A stretch of 64,000 bases of DNA from a virus: positions 1-64,000 of IMG/VR virus record IMGVR_UViG_3300030117_001894, one strand, 5' to 3'. Positions 46,742-61,827 of the stretch are shown one piece after another; position 1 is the stretch's first letter, and every line of letters starts with the position of its first letter. The position numbers and the translations under genes were made by a program. Below the pieces are notes generated by a model, which was not told the origin of the DNA, did no database searches, and saw only the letters and a program-made list of their open reading frames with translations.

Positions 46742-47062
46742 CTATACTTGACGATGATTTAAATCTTCGTCTTTTTTCCATAATCCATTTTCTAATTTAC
46801 CTGTTCGTTTAGATATCTCTTTGTAAGCCGCTATCATGCACTCCTCGAGCGTTAAACCTTTTTGTTCAGCTAAAACGATCAAACAAACAACACAATCCCC
46901 TATCCCGTCTTTTAATCCAGGTGCATCATCGTAGGCGAGGGCTCGAGCTGTCTCACCGACTTCTTCTACAAGTTTCAACATTTGTTTTTCAGGTTGTATA
47001 TCGGGACCATAAAGTAGACCACGTACTTCCGCCCAATCAACGATATCATCAATTACTTTCAT
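46742..47062 (-). CDS. MazG-like nucleotide pyrophosphohydrolase
   Basis: 106 aa from MKVIDDIVDW, chosen because AGGAGAG lies directly upstream; the longer frame overlaps the lipoprotein gene. MazG hallmarks: KLVEEVGETARALA (EExxE) and DGIGDCVVCLIVLAEQ (DxxxD). Such enzymes hydrolyse NTPs or modified dNTPs; in phages they are often linked with nucleotide-pool control. In this genome it could clear unwanted dTTP-type nucleotides, but specificity cannot be read. Confidence 0.8.
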   Translation of the reverse strand: MKVIDDIVDWAEVRGLLYGPDIQPEKQMLKLVEEVGETARALAYDDAPGLKDGIGDCVVCLIVLAEQKGLTLEECMIAAYKEISKRTGKLENGLWKKDEDLNHRQV

Positions 47063-47267
47063 CTCTCTCCTTTTTAGTTTCCATACACCAATGCCAAGCA
47101 TCATTTTCCATATACATAAATGCTCGACATTCTTCCAACCTTTTTTCCCATTCATTTAAGTTATCTTTCTCATTTAGATTTGTATCTGTAATTGTTGTTG
47201 AGCAACCAATCAAACCAACTGCTACCAGAATTAACCATATAAATTTGTCCTTAAATATTTCAATCAT
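47049..47267 (-). CDS. Small lipoprotein A
   Basis: 72 aa. Signal sequence FIWLILVAVG with lipobox LIGC at Cys22. The mature part has WEKRLEECRAFMYMENDAWH, then WCMETKKERDES, matching lipoprotein B at 49254-49466 (WRKQFEECR...WSKCMER). An early lipoprotein may block superinfection or act at the envelope; this is inference. Confidence 0.7.
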   Translation of the reverse strand: MIEIFKDKFIWLILVAVGLIGCSTTITDTNLNEKDNLNEWEKRLEECRAFMYMENDAWHWCMETKKERDESN

Positions 47268-55771: not shown

Positions 55772-56124
55772 TTCTTCTTTTTAATCCTCGTGACTTTAGT
55801 TTTCTTAGCTTTTGGCTTTTTTGCAGAAGCTTTTTTCTTAGGAGCTTTTCCACCCACCCAAGCTTCGTTAACATCTGGAGTAGACTTATCATCTGCCTTA
55901 TATGTTCCCTTTTTCGTTCTAGCTCGTTTAGGAGCTTCTTTTACAGCTTCATAGATTTTCCCTGCTTTAATTTCGTCATCAAACTTCTTTAAAACAACTT
56001 CAGCATCTTTGATTGCTTTTTCTAGAACTTTTTCCTTTACACCTTTTTTAGGTTGTAGTTCTTCTTTTGGTAAAGGCTTGAAAAAGTTTAATACTTTTGT
56101 CAACCAACTATCTGTATTACTCAT
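55768..56124 (-). CDS. Lys-rich basic protein
   Basis: 118 aa. Residues 1-60 are helical (KEKVLEKAIKDAEVVLKKFD); the C-terminal 35 residues are nearly all Lys/Ala (KKKASAKKPKAKKTKVTRIK). Histone-H1-like tail suggests DNA binding. It overlaps polA by 4 bp, so it is co-expressed with replication. Confidence 0.65.
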   Translation of the reverse strand: MSNTDSWLTKVLNFFKPLPKEELQPKKGVKEKVLEKAIKDAEVVLKKFDDEIKAGKIYEAVKEAPKRARTKKGTYKADDKSTPDVNEAWVGGKAPKKKASAKKPKAKKTKVTRIKKKK

Positions 56125-56474
56125 TAGTAATCCTCCTTGCCGTCTTCTGCGGCATAATTAACATCGTCAGCTTCAACGCTAACCTCATTAGTACTAGCTA
56201 AAATAAATTCTTCAACTAATAATAAATATCTACGTAAGTCTCGAATATCATCGAGTAGACCTGCTTCGCCTTTGTAGACTTCACCTGCCTCGAATACATC
56301 CCACCCGTGCTTTTCAGACTGGTGTTCTATACGATCGAACTTACGTGCCAACATCATAAAAGCACCGACACCTCCACGACGTCTCCAAGAATCACCGTAC
56401 GAAGTCTCTGCTCGTTTAAGAGCTTCAAGATCGTTTTGGGCAATTTCTTTCATCTTTTCCCATTTATTGCTCAT
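56124..56474 (-). CDS. Nucleotide-metabolism-like protein (DUF1599/Nmad1-like)
   Basis: 116 aa from MSNKWEKMKEIA, with TAGGAGAAAA upstream; the longer frame overlaps the TS gene. RAETSYGDSWRRRGGVGAFM followed by MLARKFDRIEHQSEKHGWDV and DIRDLRRYLLLVEEF recalls the all-helical DUF1599-type family linked to nucleotide modification. It sits next to the TS homologue, which agrees. Family call is tentative. Confidence 0.6.
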   Translation of the reverse strand: MSNKWEKMKEIAQNDLEALKRAETSYGDSWRRRGGVGAFMMLARKFDRIEHQSEKHGWDVFEAGEVYKGEAGLLDDIRDLRRYLLLVEEFILASTNEVSVEADDVNYAAEDGKEDY

Positions 56475-57559
56475 TTGTTTTCTCCTATATCCGCATTGTT
56501 TAAAGTATAGGCAGTGTCTCGTTTGCGGATCCATTCAAAACACGCCTCCATCCAATCGAGAGCTTTAATAGACTGTACTTCTCGATATGAATTCAAATAA
56601 TCTCTTTCTTTATGATAATAAAATGCTTTTAACATAGGGATTGCTATGTCTGGGAAAATACGATTATCCCATTCAATATCATCTGTTCTTTTTAAAATTT
56701 CTTTTGCGTCATATCTAAAAGAATCAAAATAATCGAAAAAGAACCGTAACTCTCTATTAAAAGAATCAACCTCATTAATTAAGGGCATGGGTTCATAATC
56801 AATAAGATCATAATGATTTTTCTGATGTCTATAAGTATAGACATCTAGTTCCATTTCTTTTACCTTCTTCCACACTGGTGTATTAGGGTAGATATGAAAA
56901 CTATCACTAATTTGAGTATAGTCCCCCATAGAGAGATTTAAATGTTGAGCCATGTATTCTTGTAACATAGACATATGCACTACGTTCGCACCATAAGCCC
57001 CCCAAAGCATATCGTTAGAACGATTACAAACGGTCATACATAACTTACCATCACGTACCTTAAAATAAATATTCGTATTACAAGGTACATCCTTACGTTC
57101 TTTTTTCTTATTACAAGCTCTCGCTAAATCTTCCTTAGGATCCCACATCTGTAAAACTGCTCGTCTTTCGTAAGGGTTTTCTTTTAACAAACGAATCAAT
57201 GTAGCTAACTGATCTTTTTTCCAATAACTTCTCCATCGCCAACCATACGCCCCCCATAAAGTTTCACCGTCGTCAGAAAAATCTTCCATCGACTTAACAA
57301 AATAAGTTAGTGGTTCTAGGTCGTTATGACCATCAAGCATCCATAATCCTTCTATAAAATGAAAAAATGGATTAGCATCTCTTTGTTTTATTAAACAAAC
57401 TCTTTCCCACGGTTTTTTGTATACCGTAGTTACAGGTGTATTGGCTTCATACGTTATACCATTACGACTTTCCTGTATTCTGTATTCGGTAGAATCTTGA
57501 AATAAATCGATACCTCTTTCTAACGCGTCGTTTACGTTTCTTGCATTAATTACTTTCAT
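56471..57559 (-). CDS. Thymidylate synthase / dUMP hydroxymethylase family enzyme
   Basis: 362 aa. Catalytic Cys160 in DVPCNTNIYF; phosphate and base site CNRSNDMLWGAYGANVVHMS (Arg180, Ser181, Asp183, Asn192), DSFHIYPNTPVW (His222, Tyr224). Asn192, at the position that is Asp in dCMP hydroxymethylases, points to dUMP as substrate. Longer than ThyA because of N-terminal and C-terminal insertions. Phage members make dTMP or 5-hydroxymethyl-dUMP; sequence alone cannot decide, but the hypermodification-type neighbour at 57770 favours the latter. Confidence 0.85.
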   Translation of the reverse strand: MKVINARNVNDALERGIDLFQDSTEYRIQESRNGITYEANTPVTTVYKKPWERVCLIKQRDANPFFHFIEGLWMLDGHNDLEPLTYFVKSMEDFSDDGETLWGAYGWRWRSYWKKDQLATLIRLLKENPYERRAVLQMWDPKEDLARACNKKKERKDVPCNTNIYFKVRDGKLCMTVCNRSNDMLWGAYGANVVHMSMLQEYMAQHLNLSMGDYTQISDSFHIYPNTPVWKKVKEMELDVYTYRHQKNHYDLIDYEPMPLINEVDSFNRELRFFFDYFDSFRYDAKEILKRTDDIEWDNRIFPDIAIPMLKAFYYHKERDYLNSYREVQSIKALDWMEACFEWIRKRDTAYTLNNADIGENK

Positions 57560-57777
57560 AACGTATCTTGATAAGCTCCTACGATTACACTGATGACATA
57601 ACTTATATCATCCTCACTTAACACTGGAATTTTTCTTTTAATAAAAGCTATCGCAAGTCGTTCATTTGCGGGTACTTTTAGAAAGAAAGATACTTCCAAA
57701 AACTGTGTGTAATATATATCTATTTCGTCACCATAGTCTTGCAATAAATCTATTGCGTGATCACTCATTTTACCCAT
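57556..57777 (-). CDS. 73-aa hypothetical protein
   Basis: Helical and acidic (MSDHAIDLLQDYGDEIDIYY, ERLAIAFIKRKIPVLSEDDI). Overlaps genes on both sides by 4-8 bp, locked between the TS-like and hypermodification-type genes. Possibly a small partner of either. Not recognised. Confidence 0.65.
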   Translation of the reverse strand: MGKMSDHAIDLLQDYGDEIDIYYTQFLEVSFFLKVPANERLAIAFIKRKIPVLSEDDISYVISVIVGAYQDTL

Positions 57778-58699
57778 ATTTACTTTCTCCTATTGTATTT
57801 AGATCTTCGATAATTGGAAGATCATTATGTTTATACACCGATCGTGTTCTCCCCTCGTTCTTATATATTCGAGAGTATTTATCGAACTCACATAAACCCC
57901 CTTCGATCTCTCGCATTTCATAATTAGCACCGTTTCTAAAAATTATTGAAGGAGCTAATATTTTCTTTACTTGTTCAAATAGGTCTTGCATTTCCTCACA
58001 CCACGGATGACTTTTACGACAATAATCTAACGGTCTTCCTGTAAGACGATTAAGTCCTCGCATAGCTCCTGGACCTGCATTAGCCCACGTCATAATATCG
58101 TTAGCGTTCTCTAACAAATACGTATGCCTTAAATCAGTAACAACTTCGTACGCCATAAATGGACCCATGTATGGATAATCTCTAAGAATTAACCACGTTG
58201 CTTCTAAGGAAGATTCACCTTTTGCTAACTTTTCATGCATTCTGGCTAAAATAGATTCTTTAGCTTTCCAAATATGAGATACACATTCAGCAACTCCTGT
58301 TACTTTATCCATACCGTTTGGTGTTTTAATAATGTAAGCACCCGTGATCCATTTAGTTTGTTTAGTTATTTCATAAATAGCTTTCTTTCTATTCCATTTA
58401 CGTAATAGATTATGATCGATTAAAGTTCTCCCTGTTTCTATTAAATTAAACCAACGGAATATAATCGTAGCCATAAGAACGTCTTCTTCGTTTCGCATAG
58501 GCTCTCTTATATGTGTTCTAAACCAACGTGTTGTACGATCATCTTCTCTAAACACTTGGCAAAACTTGAACTCCTGCAGAATCGGATCGTCAGTCCAGGG
58601 AGGGGAAAGAACTGCAGATTCTTTTTTGATACGTATTGACTCACGTTCAGTTTGCCAATAGCAATAACGATCCAACTCTGCGGGAATAAACTTAGTCAT
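57770..58699 (-). CDS. DNA base hypermodification protein (HMUDK-helical / aGPT-Pplase type)
   Basis: 309 aa. ESIRIKKES, then PPWTDDPILQEFKFCQVFRE, DDRTTRW (34-59) is the hallmark opening of the 5-hmdU DNA kinase helical / alpha-glutamyl-putrescinyl-thymine pyrophosphorylase family. A helix-hairpin-helix-like YPYMGPFMAYEVVTDLRHTY (175-194) and AGPGAMRGL (208-216) follow, as in that DNA-glycosylase-like fold. The family acts in making hypermodified thymines from 5-hydroxymethyluracil in DNA. No P-loop kinase is fused. Family call from memory of the motif. Confidence 0.75.
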   Translation of the reverse strand: MTKFIPAELDRYCYWQTERESIRIKKESAVLSPPWTDDPILQEFKFCQVFREDDRTTRWFRTHIREPMRNEEDVLMATIIFRWFNLIETGRTLIDHNLLRKWNRKKAIYEITKQTKWITGAYIIKTPNGMDKVTGVAECVSHIWKAKESILARMHEKLAKGESSLEATWLILRDYPYMGPFMAYEVVTDLRHTYLLENANDIMTWANAGPGAMRGLNRLTGRPLDYCRKSHPWCEEMQDLFEQVKKILAPSIIFRNGANYEMREIEGGLCEFDKYSRIYKNEGRTRSVYKHNDLPIIEDLNTIGESKYG

Positions 58700-59556
58700 T
58701 ATTTTTTACGTAACACCCATGAACAGTTATTTGCATATTCAGGATAAAACGTTGCAGCAACAACTCGTAAAAATTGTCTACCATATCTGTTTTGTAATCT
58801 ATTGAATTGTTTCGGAGTCCAACCGTCCCATTCGTGTTCGCCTTCGGCGTCTTTTTTCATAGCTTTCTTTAAATTAGGTAGCTGTATAAACGTACCTGTT
58901 ACGTCAACTATTTCGAAGTTCCTTTCTAATTCTTCTTTTAGTTCTTGGAAACCCCACTCGTATACGTGGTCTTCAGGAAGTTTATCATTAGAGCCGTCGT
59001 GGTTAGGCGTAGATACAAAAGCTAATCCATTCGGTCGCATAACCCTAGTTGCATCGTCTAACCATGCACTAATAAACTCTCTCCCCATGTGTTCAATAAC
59101 TTCTGTCGTCCAGAAAAAATCTATACTTTCATCTTCTAAATCGAACACAGGGTTTACAGTTAAATCTTGTATACGTATTTCACCGTTAAAGTTCTGAAAC
59201 CATGTAGAATCAGCCAACTCTCCACCCGCATTAGACCAAAAAGGATTTTCTAATTCACAAGCAGGGTCAATATCGTAGCCATAATACGATCTGATAATAT
59301 CTGATTTCTTTACGACATAAGCTTTATATAGATTTCTAAGCGTCCAACACTCACCGCAACCAACTTCAAACGTATCAAGAGGTCTTTCTAACCGTTTAGC
59401 TTCAGCGATACACATAGAAGCAATCTTATCGAACCGACTCATATGAGCGAGTTCATCAGGTCTCCAGTTTGCTAATACACCTGCACTAGCGATATCCATT
59501 CTAGTATTTTTACTGTCGTTTTCGTTAACAGTTAATTTCTTTCTTATTGATGACAT
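58699..59556 (-). CDS. Class I SAM-dependent methyltransferase
   Basis: 285 aa from MSSIRKKLTVNE; ATAAGGAGAAAAA fixes this start, and promoter P11 lies upstream of it. Motif I FEVGCGECWTLRNLY, acidic YGYDIDPACE, then FFWTTEVIEHMGREF and MRPNGLAFVSTPNHDG are typical of Methyltransf_11/23-type enzymes. It directly precedes the hypermodification-type gene and could act in the same pathway; substrate unknown. Confidence 0.82.
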   Translation of the reverse strand: MSSIRKKLTVNENDSKNTRMDIASAGVLANWRPDELAHMSRFDKIASMCIAEAKRLERPLDTFEVGCGECWTLRNLYKAYVVKKSDIIRSYYGYDIDPACELENPFWSNAGGELADSTWFQNFNGEIRIQDLTVNPVFDLEDESIDFFWTTEVIEHMGREFISAWLDDATRVMRPNGLAFVSTPNHDGSNDKLPEDHVYEWGFQELKEELERNFEIVDVTGTFIQLPNLKKAMKKDAEGEHEWDGWTPKQFNRLQNRYGRQFLRVVAATFYPEYANNCSWVLRKK

Positions 59557-59580: not shown

Positions 59581-59614
59581 ATTATCCTTTACTTTTATAT
59601 ACAAAGTAAAGTAC
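59581..59614 (-). promoter_or_regulatory. Early promoter P11
   Basis: Minus strand GTAC-TTTACT, 18-bp spacer, GATAAT, three bases after the helicase stop. It starts the methyltransferase / hypermodification / TS / polA operon. Short leader with AAGGAGAAAAA. Confidence 0.65.
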
Positions 59615-61113: not shown

Positions 61114-61252
61114 TCTCAAAACCGTGATAGACCTCAACATAAGTATTACAATTAGGACAACTAAGATTAGTTACAATATCGTACTCATCATCGTCTTCTA
61201 TATCATGATCACCACCCCAAATTAATTCTGTATTACAGTGCCAACAATTCAT
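61100..61252 (-). CDS. 50-aa zinc-ribbon protein
   Basis: Reads MNCWHCNTELIWGGDHDIED with a second pair in LSCPNC. Two CxxC sites form a zinc ribbon. Tiny proteins of just this type are frequent in marine phage replication regions. Overlaps both neighbours (AlkB-like stop and helicase start). Confidence 0.75.
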   Translation of the reverse strand: MNCWHCNTELIWGGDHDIEDDDEYDIVTNLSCPNCNTYVEVYHGFENDPA

Positions 61253-61827
61253 AATCCGCTCCTAAAAGTTAAATTAACTCTTTCTTCCGCTCCTACTAAA
61301 TCAGGAACAGCGTGAGTTGATTTCATCTGTGAGTGTCCATCGAACATAATTACATCACCGTGATCAAGAAGATATAACTTCTCATCTTTTACAAAATTTT
61401 CCTTAAAATCTACATCACTGGTATTTGTATGTCGTTTTATATTATTTTGATAAGTTCTCCAAGCAAAAACTCTAGGTGCACCAAAACTTAAAGAAACGAC
61501 TACGTCATTAAGAGTAGGCACAGTATCGCTGTGGTGTGGTATACCTTTATCATCAGGATAAAAACCACATAAACAAAAAGTAAATTTGATCTCTTTATCG
61601 AAAACTCTGGAAGCTACATCTTCTGCCGCAACCTTGATTAATTGCATTTTATGAGTCCATGGTTCAGGCTCATATAACTTACCTGCGTAATTAAAAGTTG
61701 AATCACCAAACCCACGAGTCGGTCGACCTTTAACCATCGTACCTTCGAACATACGTTCACGAGGATCATCCCATTTATCTATCCCGTGTTCGAATTCAGA
61801 AAAGATATGTTTAATGTGTTTAATCAT
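61249..61827 (-). CDS. AlkB-like 2-oxoglutarate/Fe(II) dioxygenase
   Basis: 192 aa. FYPDDKGIPHHSDTVP gives HxD (His99, Asp101); the distal iron ligand is His172 (STHAVP), and RVNLTFR (Arg183, Arg189) matches the AlkB 2-oxoglutarate and substrate-binding Rx5R. LSFGAPRVFAWR and DHGDVIMFDG complete the jelly roll. It could repair alkylated bases or oxidise a methyl base; close to the hypermodification-type cluster, so a role there is possible. Confidence 0.88.
   Translation of the reverse strand: MIKHIKHIFSEFEHGIDKWDDPRERMFEGTMVKGRPTRGFGDSTFNYAGKLYEPEPWTHKMQLIKVAAEDVASRVFDKEIKFTFCLCGFYPDDKGIPHHSDTVPTLNDVVVSLSFGAPRVFAWRTYQNNIKRHTNTSDVDFKENFVKDEKLYLLDHGDVIMFDGHSQMKSTHAVPDLVGAEERVNLTFRSGL

Follow-up and report, generated by a model that had tools for sequence, protein, structure and literature searches.

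The described systems closest to the locus analyzed here are those of the Pseudomonas phages M6 and PaMx11, in which a thymidylate synthase homolog (TS) of the dUMP-hydroxymethylase type and a helical protein of the HMUDK_hel family (HEL) are encoded beside a family A DNA polymerase, with a P-loop 5-hydroxymethyl-deoxyuridine (5hmdU) DNA kinase gene directly before the HEL gene and an amino-acid:DNA transferase (ADDT) gene nearby. In the known pathways, 5hmdU is phosphorylated, making the base open to attack by an amino acid. TS and HEL (the latter under its older name, aG/PT-PPlase1) have also been reported from HTVC023P-type pelagiphages of clades V, VIII, and IX, where the pair lies near PolA (Wittmers et al. 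2022, PMC9599517). The main text of that article contains no occurrence (0) of a methyltransferase, and the passages retrieved from it do not take up the absence of an hmdU kinase or of an amino-acid transferase. Here we analyzed positions 1 to 64,000 (the whole stretch, 64,000 nucleotides, is called the window below) of IMG/VR record IMGVR_UViG_3300030117_001894, which derives from a phage of the same type with such a TS-HEL pair near PolA. TS and HEL follow the order found in M6 and PaMx11, but a class I S-adenosylmethionine (SAM)-dependent methyltransferase (MT) takes the position of the kinase, and both the kinase and the amino-acid transferase are absent. While the presence of TS and HEL in HTVC023P-type phages is already known, the new element is an MT directly before HEL without a kinase or an amino-acid transferase.

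That this cassette is a thymine-modification pathway is very probable. As to its chemistry, we propose with moderate confidence a kinase-independent modification in which SAM, and not phosphate, would activate the chemistry at the 5-hydroxymethyl oxygen, with 5-(methoxymethyl)-deoxyuridine as the product. TS would convert dUMP to 5-hydroxymethyl-dUMP, as its residues and its kinship suggest. Host kinases would then phosphorylate this nucleotide to its triphosphate, from which the DNA polymerase of the phage would insert 5-hydroxymethyl-dU for thymidine. In the resulting DNA, HEL, whose predicted fold is weakly like those of a phage DNA transferase and of DNA glycosylases, would recognize or flip 5hmdU, and MT, with SAM as the activated donor, would methylate the hydroxymethyl oxygen to give 5-(methoxymethyl)-deoxyuridine (mass of dT + 30). 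DNA modified in this way would be protected from host nucleases. SAM, like a nucleotide sugar, is an already activated donor, which the 5hmdU hydroxyl could attack directly, without a kinase. With the base hydroxyl as the attacker, neither a kinase nor an amino-acid:DNA transferase would be needed, which fits the absence of both. This raises the possibility of a chemically distinct branch of phage thymine modification, in which the base hydroxyl attacks an activated donor, whereas in the known branch an amino acid attacks an activated base. We tentatively regard the O-methyl product as the most economical reading. No report of methoxymethyl pyrimidines in phage DNA was found in the literature searched, and the predicted base appears to be unreported in the literature available. 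The proposal thus names a specific new DNA base that can be tested for, and it concerns phages of a type that has been described as occurring widely in the ocean.

The viral record that holds the window has 65,914 bases. Its terminal 100 bases repeat the initial 100 with one mismatch (99/100), and an SNF2-like helicase gene is split, with one end at each end of the record; the record therefore looks like a complete genome that was assembled as a circle, despite being labeled linear in the catalog. Its PolA is 54% identical to that of 023Pt_psg01 and 49% identical to that of Pelagibacter phage HTVC023P, a phage type assigned to the Podoviridae (PMC9599517), which indicates that the phage is related to HTVC023P-type pelagiphages and supports the initial annotation of a probable marine podovirus. 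In this genome (G000 in our comparative searches) and in 14 related records, neither the 5-hmdU DNA kinase profiles (HMUDK P-loop PF18748 and AAA_33) nor the ADDT profile (PF18724) found a match; the same profiles match in M6, PaMx11, and Epa5. Among the window's open reading frames (ORFs) of at least 60 amino acids, a Walker A motif is present only in a UvrD-like helicase. The earlier remark that no P-loop hmdU kinase is visible in the window can thus be extended to the whole apparently complete genome and to these 14 records.

The linkage of MT with HEL recurs in related phages. Wherever a related IMG/VR contig extends far enough, its genes run from the helicase through MT, HEL, (small protein), TS, and a homolog of the gene downstream of TS to PolA. 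A search with HEL retrieved 80 related contigs, and MT is directly upstream of HEL in all of the related HEL loci that reach the MT position. A separate search with MT fetched 80 contigs, and HEL lies directly downstream in 80/80 at a distance of no more than 166 bases; the two sets of 80 share many members. In HTVC023P and 023Pt_psg01, just small genes are found between the helicase and polymerase genes, which makes the cassette an optional module with a fixed place. Wider searches brought the number of loci with HEL to 251, most of which were examined within 5 kb only. A kinase is near HEL in 50 of the 51 loci with an amino-acid transferase (the lone locus without a kinase in range is that of nACB2), in 0 of 26 with a glycosyltransferase, and in 0 of 80 with MT, counts that are not independent trials because HEL loci share descent. 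Sister marine phages of the HTVC023P type (loci L241-L262) share this helicase and harbor, between it and the polymerase gene, an HEL-TS module without a kinase that contains a TET-associated glycosyltransferase (TAGT, PF20691; 7.6e-25) instead of MT. This suggests that their DNA may carry glycosylated hmdU. The TAGT profile is absent from the genome under study and six relatives and present in four sister records. In a tree of HEL sequences, the MT group forms one clade (100/99) nested in a set that also includes the kinase group of PaMx11 and Epa5, and the TAGT group is placed elsewhere; from these placements, kinase-free HEL modules seem to have more than one origin. On the marine contig whose HEL is nearest to the MT group, one gene weakly resembles a glycosyltransferase (0.005). 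HEL, although named after the kinase, would thus be separable from it, remaining constant while the partner enzyme varies across the 251 loci.

HEL itself matches the Pfam family HMUDK_hel (PF18723) with an E value of 8e-42 (144 bits, where the cut-off is 25; residues 9-282 on positions 4-278 of the 281-position profile) and PHROG 2396 with 2.5e-61. The profile search suggested in the initial annotation therefore bears out the assignment to the HMUDK_hel/aGPT-PPlase family made there. Dozens of invariant columns are shared with PaMx11, M6, and Epa5, with 35-43% identity to the M6 and PaMx11 proteins. No relatives of solved structure were found by sequence, with the single sequence or with a profile. 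The AlphaFold model is confident and all-helical (pLDDT 88), and its top fold match in the PDB is the PaMx11 gp46 5-phosphomethyl-deoxyuridine glycinyltransferase (8z2n; probability 0.93, E value 0.36, TM score 0.42-0.45); the HhH DNA glycosylase MagIII ranks next, and OGG1 and endonuclease III come further down. This weakly points to a base-flipping, DNA-binding architecture. HEL occurs without a kinase in several lineages and is not itself a kinase. A kinase fused to HEL was considered and rejected, as no clear fused kinase was seen among the HEL reading frames of 174 loci; the HEL of L235 has one Walker-A-like string (residue 135), which lies inside the HEL match itself. A close search of viral contigs with the PaMx11 HEL returned PaMx11 itself as the sole match.

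TS matches Pfam Thymidylat_synt (2.4e-22), but its best PDB match, by sequence and by profile, is the CMP 5-hydroxymethylase MilA (4.8e-24), with thymidylate synthases at 1e-12 or weaker. In an alignment of 17 sequences, C160 (the catalytic Cys) and N192 are invariant, and N192 aligns with N177 of the Escherichia coli enzyme, the determinant of dUMP specificity (PMC8670742), in agreement with the dUMP-type Asn first noted for this gene. MilA has Asp at this position. In thymidylate synthase, Trp80 helps to shield the methylene intermediate from water. E. coli Trp80 is replaced by an invariant Met and Trp83 by Phe or Tyr throughout the alignment, M6 and PaMx11 included, and the enzyme of this phage has Met and Phe at the two positions. 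Since Trp80 helps to exclude water, its loss fits a hydroxymethylase. We therefore propose that TS is a dUMP 5-hydroxymethylase, for which the Trp80-to-Met exchange and the kinship with MilA are indirect indications.

MT matches class I SAM-dependent families, as annotated at the outset, and these are generic (Methyltransf_11/12/23/25/31 only; best are Methyltransf_23, 4.9e-8, and Methyltransf_11, 4.4e-6). Profiles of the DNA methyltransferase families (N6-A, N4-C, and C5) did not match it. The fold of its AlphaFold model (pLDDT 76) is nearest to those of the small-molecule methyltransferases AtmM, RebM, MitM, TleD, and SpnF, with cyclopropane synthases and mRNA cap methyltransferases also near and 0 DNA methyltransferases among the top 50. 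The N-terminal 31 residues are conserved yet disordered in the model. A pattern scan of bacterial genomes found no MT relatives, and among 50,697 phage records relatives were found only in Stenotrophomonas phage AXL3, PW916, and two Manatee Spring phages. MT and the AXL3-type proteins match by phmmer (2e-15 and 8e-12) and hhalign (98.7% over 202 columns), have 33 invariant columns, and share a C-terminal A..YP...N..W..RK signature, in each case beside a TS homolog. AXL3 thus resembles the phage under study in having a homologous methyltransferase next to a hydroxymethylase-type TS, and of 37 restriction enzymes 35 fail to cut its DNA, while the other two have A/T-only sites (PMC7504290). It differs in that its TS has Asp at position 177 (dCMP type), in its NTP-PPase, dNMP-kinase-like, and dCMP deaminase genes, and in the lack of HEL. 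Three of these four phage loci were read (AXL3, ct3Et533, and ctUtU524), and in each TS has Asp at 177. The AXL3-type cassette (L343-L367) combines MT with NTP pyrophosphohydrolase, dNMP-kinase-like, TS, and dCMP deaminase genes, and the dCMP-type Asp is present in 24 of 24 MT-relative loci with TS in reach (drawn from the phages read and 22 further contigs, with three residues read by eye from a printed motif), HEL in 0. A close search of viral contigs with the ct3Et533 MT gave no match. In the genome under study, the profiles for dNMP kinase (PF02223) and dCMP deaminase (PF00383) had no match; a MazG gene lies elsewhere (46742-47155).

As the MT family stands beside either a dUMP-type or a dCMP-type hydroxymethylase, the common acceptor would be the 5-hydroxymethyl group, and the product would hence be a 5-methoxymethyl base. 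The AXL3-type cassette is a candidate pathway for methylated 5-hydroxymethyl-cytosine in a cultured phage, so a methyltransferase family common to uracil- and cytosine-type cassettes could be tested in isolated AXL3. The suggestion, made from the first annotation, that a methyltransferase leads the operon and that the final base may therefore differ from known ones is strengthened by the MT-HEL-TS linkage, by the absence of kinase and transferase, and by the occurrence of MT with two hydroxymethylase types. A broader scheme, which we put forward somewhat more tentatively still, would have 5-(methoxymethyl)-deoxyuridine made by O-methylation of 5hmdU in HTVC023P-type phages, a cytosine counterpart in AXL3-type phages, and HEL as a general 5hmdU-DNA component whose donor can be exchanged (an amino acid together with a kinase, a nucleotide sugar, or SAM).

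Several points weigh against a SAM-activated O-methylation. The chemistry of the pathway is something we infer throughout. The fold matches of MT (TM score about 0.45) span many acceptor types, so that the acceptor is unreadable from the fold, and the pelagiphage and AXL3 proteins are only about 26% identical (hhalign, 98.7%). The restriction resistance of AXL3 has no experimental tie to its methyltransferase, and AXL3-type phages do without HEL, which sits poorly with a need of MT for HEL in this phage. All MT-HEL pairs fall in one clade of the HEL tree and have a single origin there, so that the 80 loci do not count as independent cases. The 73-amino-acid small protein has no assigned role in the proposed pathway, and a highly diverged or host kinase is possible. 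Such a hidden kinase, from the host or unrecognized, could phosphorylate 5hmdU in an M6-type pathway, with MT methylating a later intermediate (e.g., at an amino group). Host proteins are invisible from the phage genome, and HEL is sister to the kinase-bearing PaMx11/Epa5 proteins and keeps their conserved residues. However, the amino-acid transferase is missing too, no P-loop except that of the helicase occurs among the window ORFs, and other kinase-free HEL contexts rely on an activated donor, so that we consider this quite unlikely.

An unlikely but somewhat stronger candidate is O-methylation of hmdUMP by MT in the nucleotide pool, before polymerization, with HEL acting separately on DNA. 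The AXL3-group MT, which sits with pool enzymes (NTP pyrophosphohydrolase, dNMP-kinase-like protein, and dCMP deaminase) and without HEL, would suit this, whereas in the present phages MT is always tied to HEL, whose fold is of the DNA type, and a dNMP kinase gene is lacking from the genome under study. MT might also transfer a SAM-derived group other than methyl to 5hmdU (e.g., aminocarboxypropyl, or carboxymethyl from carboxy-SAM), as class I SAM enzymes do elsewhere and as a phage DNA enzyme does with carboxy-SAM (PMC12783734). Methyl transfer is, however, the commonest activity of the families that MT matches, and no CmoA-like match was present among the 18 Pfam families in 53 window proteins, although no search was aimed at CmoA; we judge this improbable. 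Least probable is that TS is an ordinary thymidylate synthase supplying dTMP and that HEL and MT have unrelated roles. The Pfam and PHROGs label of the gene is indeed thymidylate synthase, but the residue pattern, the kinship with MilA, and the constant linkage to HEL and MT speak against it, as does the presence of the same TS type in M6, where thymidine hypermodification is documented (PMC6449724).

The four cassette ORFs are contiguous with overlapping ends, as originally annotated; all lie on the minus strand (Table 1), and the overlaps are of 4 bases (TS and small protein), 8 bases (small protein and HEL), and 1 base (HEL and MT). The start of MT is taken as the ATG at 59556; the frame stays open up to a TTG at 59604. 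The single promoter assigned to the cassette did not hold up: the candidate, a 9/12 match at 59610-59581, is no better than chance, and such matches are fewer (15 observed) than in shuffled sequences (31.4), so promoter evidence for an operon was rejected. Since only a 60-base gap separates MT from the helicase upstream and the TS gene overlaps the next gene, which leads on to the DNA polymerase, the transcription unit is probably longer than four genes. All four genes are under purifying selection, and MT is the most constrained (ratios of nonsynonymous to synonymous substitution rates of 0.04-0.07 for MT, 0.08-0.17 for HEL, 0.11-0.16 for TS, and 0.15-0.20 for the small protein). The small protein had no family match in Pfam, PHROG, and further searches; it is present in about 60 of the 80 related MT loci and confined to MT loci. 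The gene downstream of TS is found in 118 HEL loci (MT, TAGT, and some kinase groups) and occurs in HTVC023P-type phages.

Table 1. Positions in the window of the cassette genes and the adjoining downstream gene
Feature	Coordinates	Strand	Length and comment
MT, class I SAM-dependent methyltransferase	58699..59556	minus	285 aa; first gene of cassette; proposed 5-hydroxymethyl (hmdU) acceptor
HEL, aGPT-PPlase clade 1 / HMUDK_hel	57770..58699	minus	309 aa; proposed DNA-acting 5hmdU recognition/base-flipping component
Small helical protein between HEL and TS	57556..57777	minus	73 aa; accessory
TS homolog, proposed dUMP 5-hydroxymethylase	56471..57559	minus	362 aa
Downstream gene of same run	56124..56474	minus	about 116 aa; start overlaps TS stop

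HEL is found in several further contexts. In the Acinetobacter phage nACB2, a Macro-domain gene (L179:5215-5913; 5e-10) is directly upstream of HEL, and in TAGT-type marine phages a pyrimidine-dimer DNA glycosylase-like gene (L243:2018-2512; PF03013, 1.3e-8) takes this place. Some of the L241-L262 TAGT modules also hold a dUTPase or a 5'-deoxynucleotidase. At one locus (L236:3-4796), HEL and TS are accompanied by genes for a PIG-L deacetylase and an APS kinase (2.7e-12) as well as by a sulfotransferase-like and a partial glycosyltransferase-like gene, possibly for a sulfated sugar on hmdU. Standalone HEL genes (L275-L342; PF18723 at 8.6e-94 in L275) are found mainly in metagenome-assembled contigs of Bacilli and Clostridia, nearly all without TS in range; directly upstream in 29 of 63 checked is a CxxxCxxC protein, and the one tested is a radical SAM/SPASM protein. 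In the window, upstream of MT past the helicase, 61249-61827 encodes an AlkB-like 2OG-Fe(II) oxygenase (2.4e-18), a gene left out of the proposed pathway because just 59 of the scanned loci have it, and the MazG-type nucleotide pyrophosphohydrolase mentioned above may have a role in the nucleotide pool.

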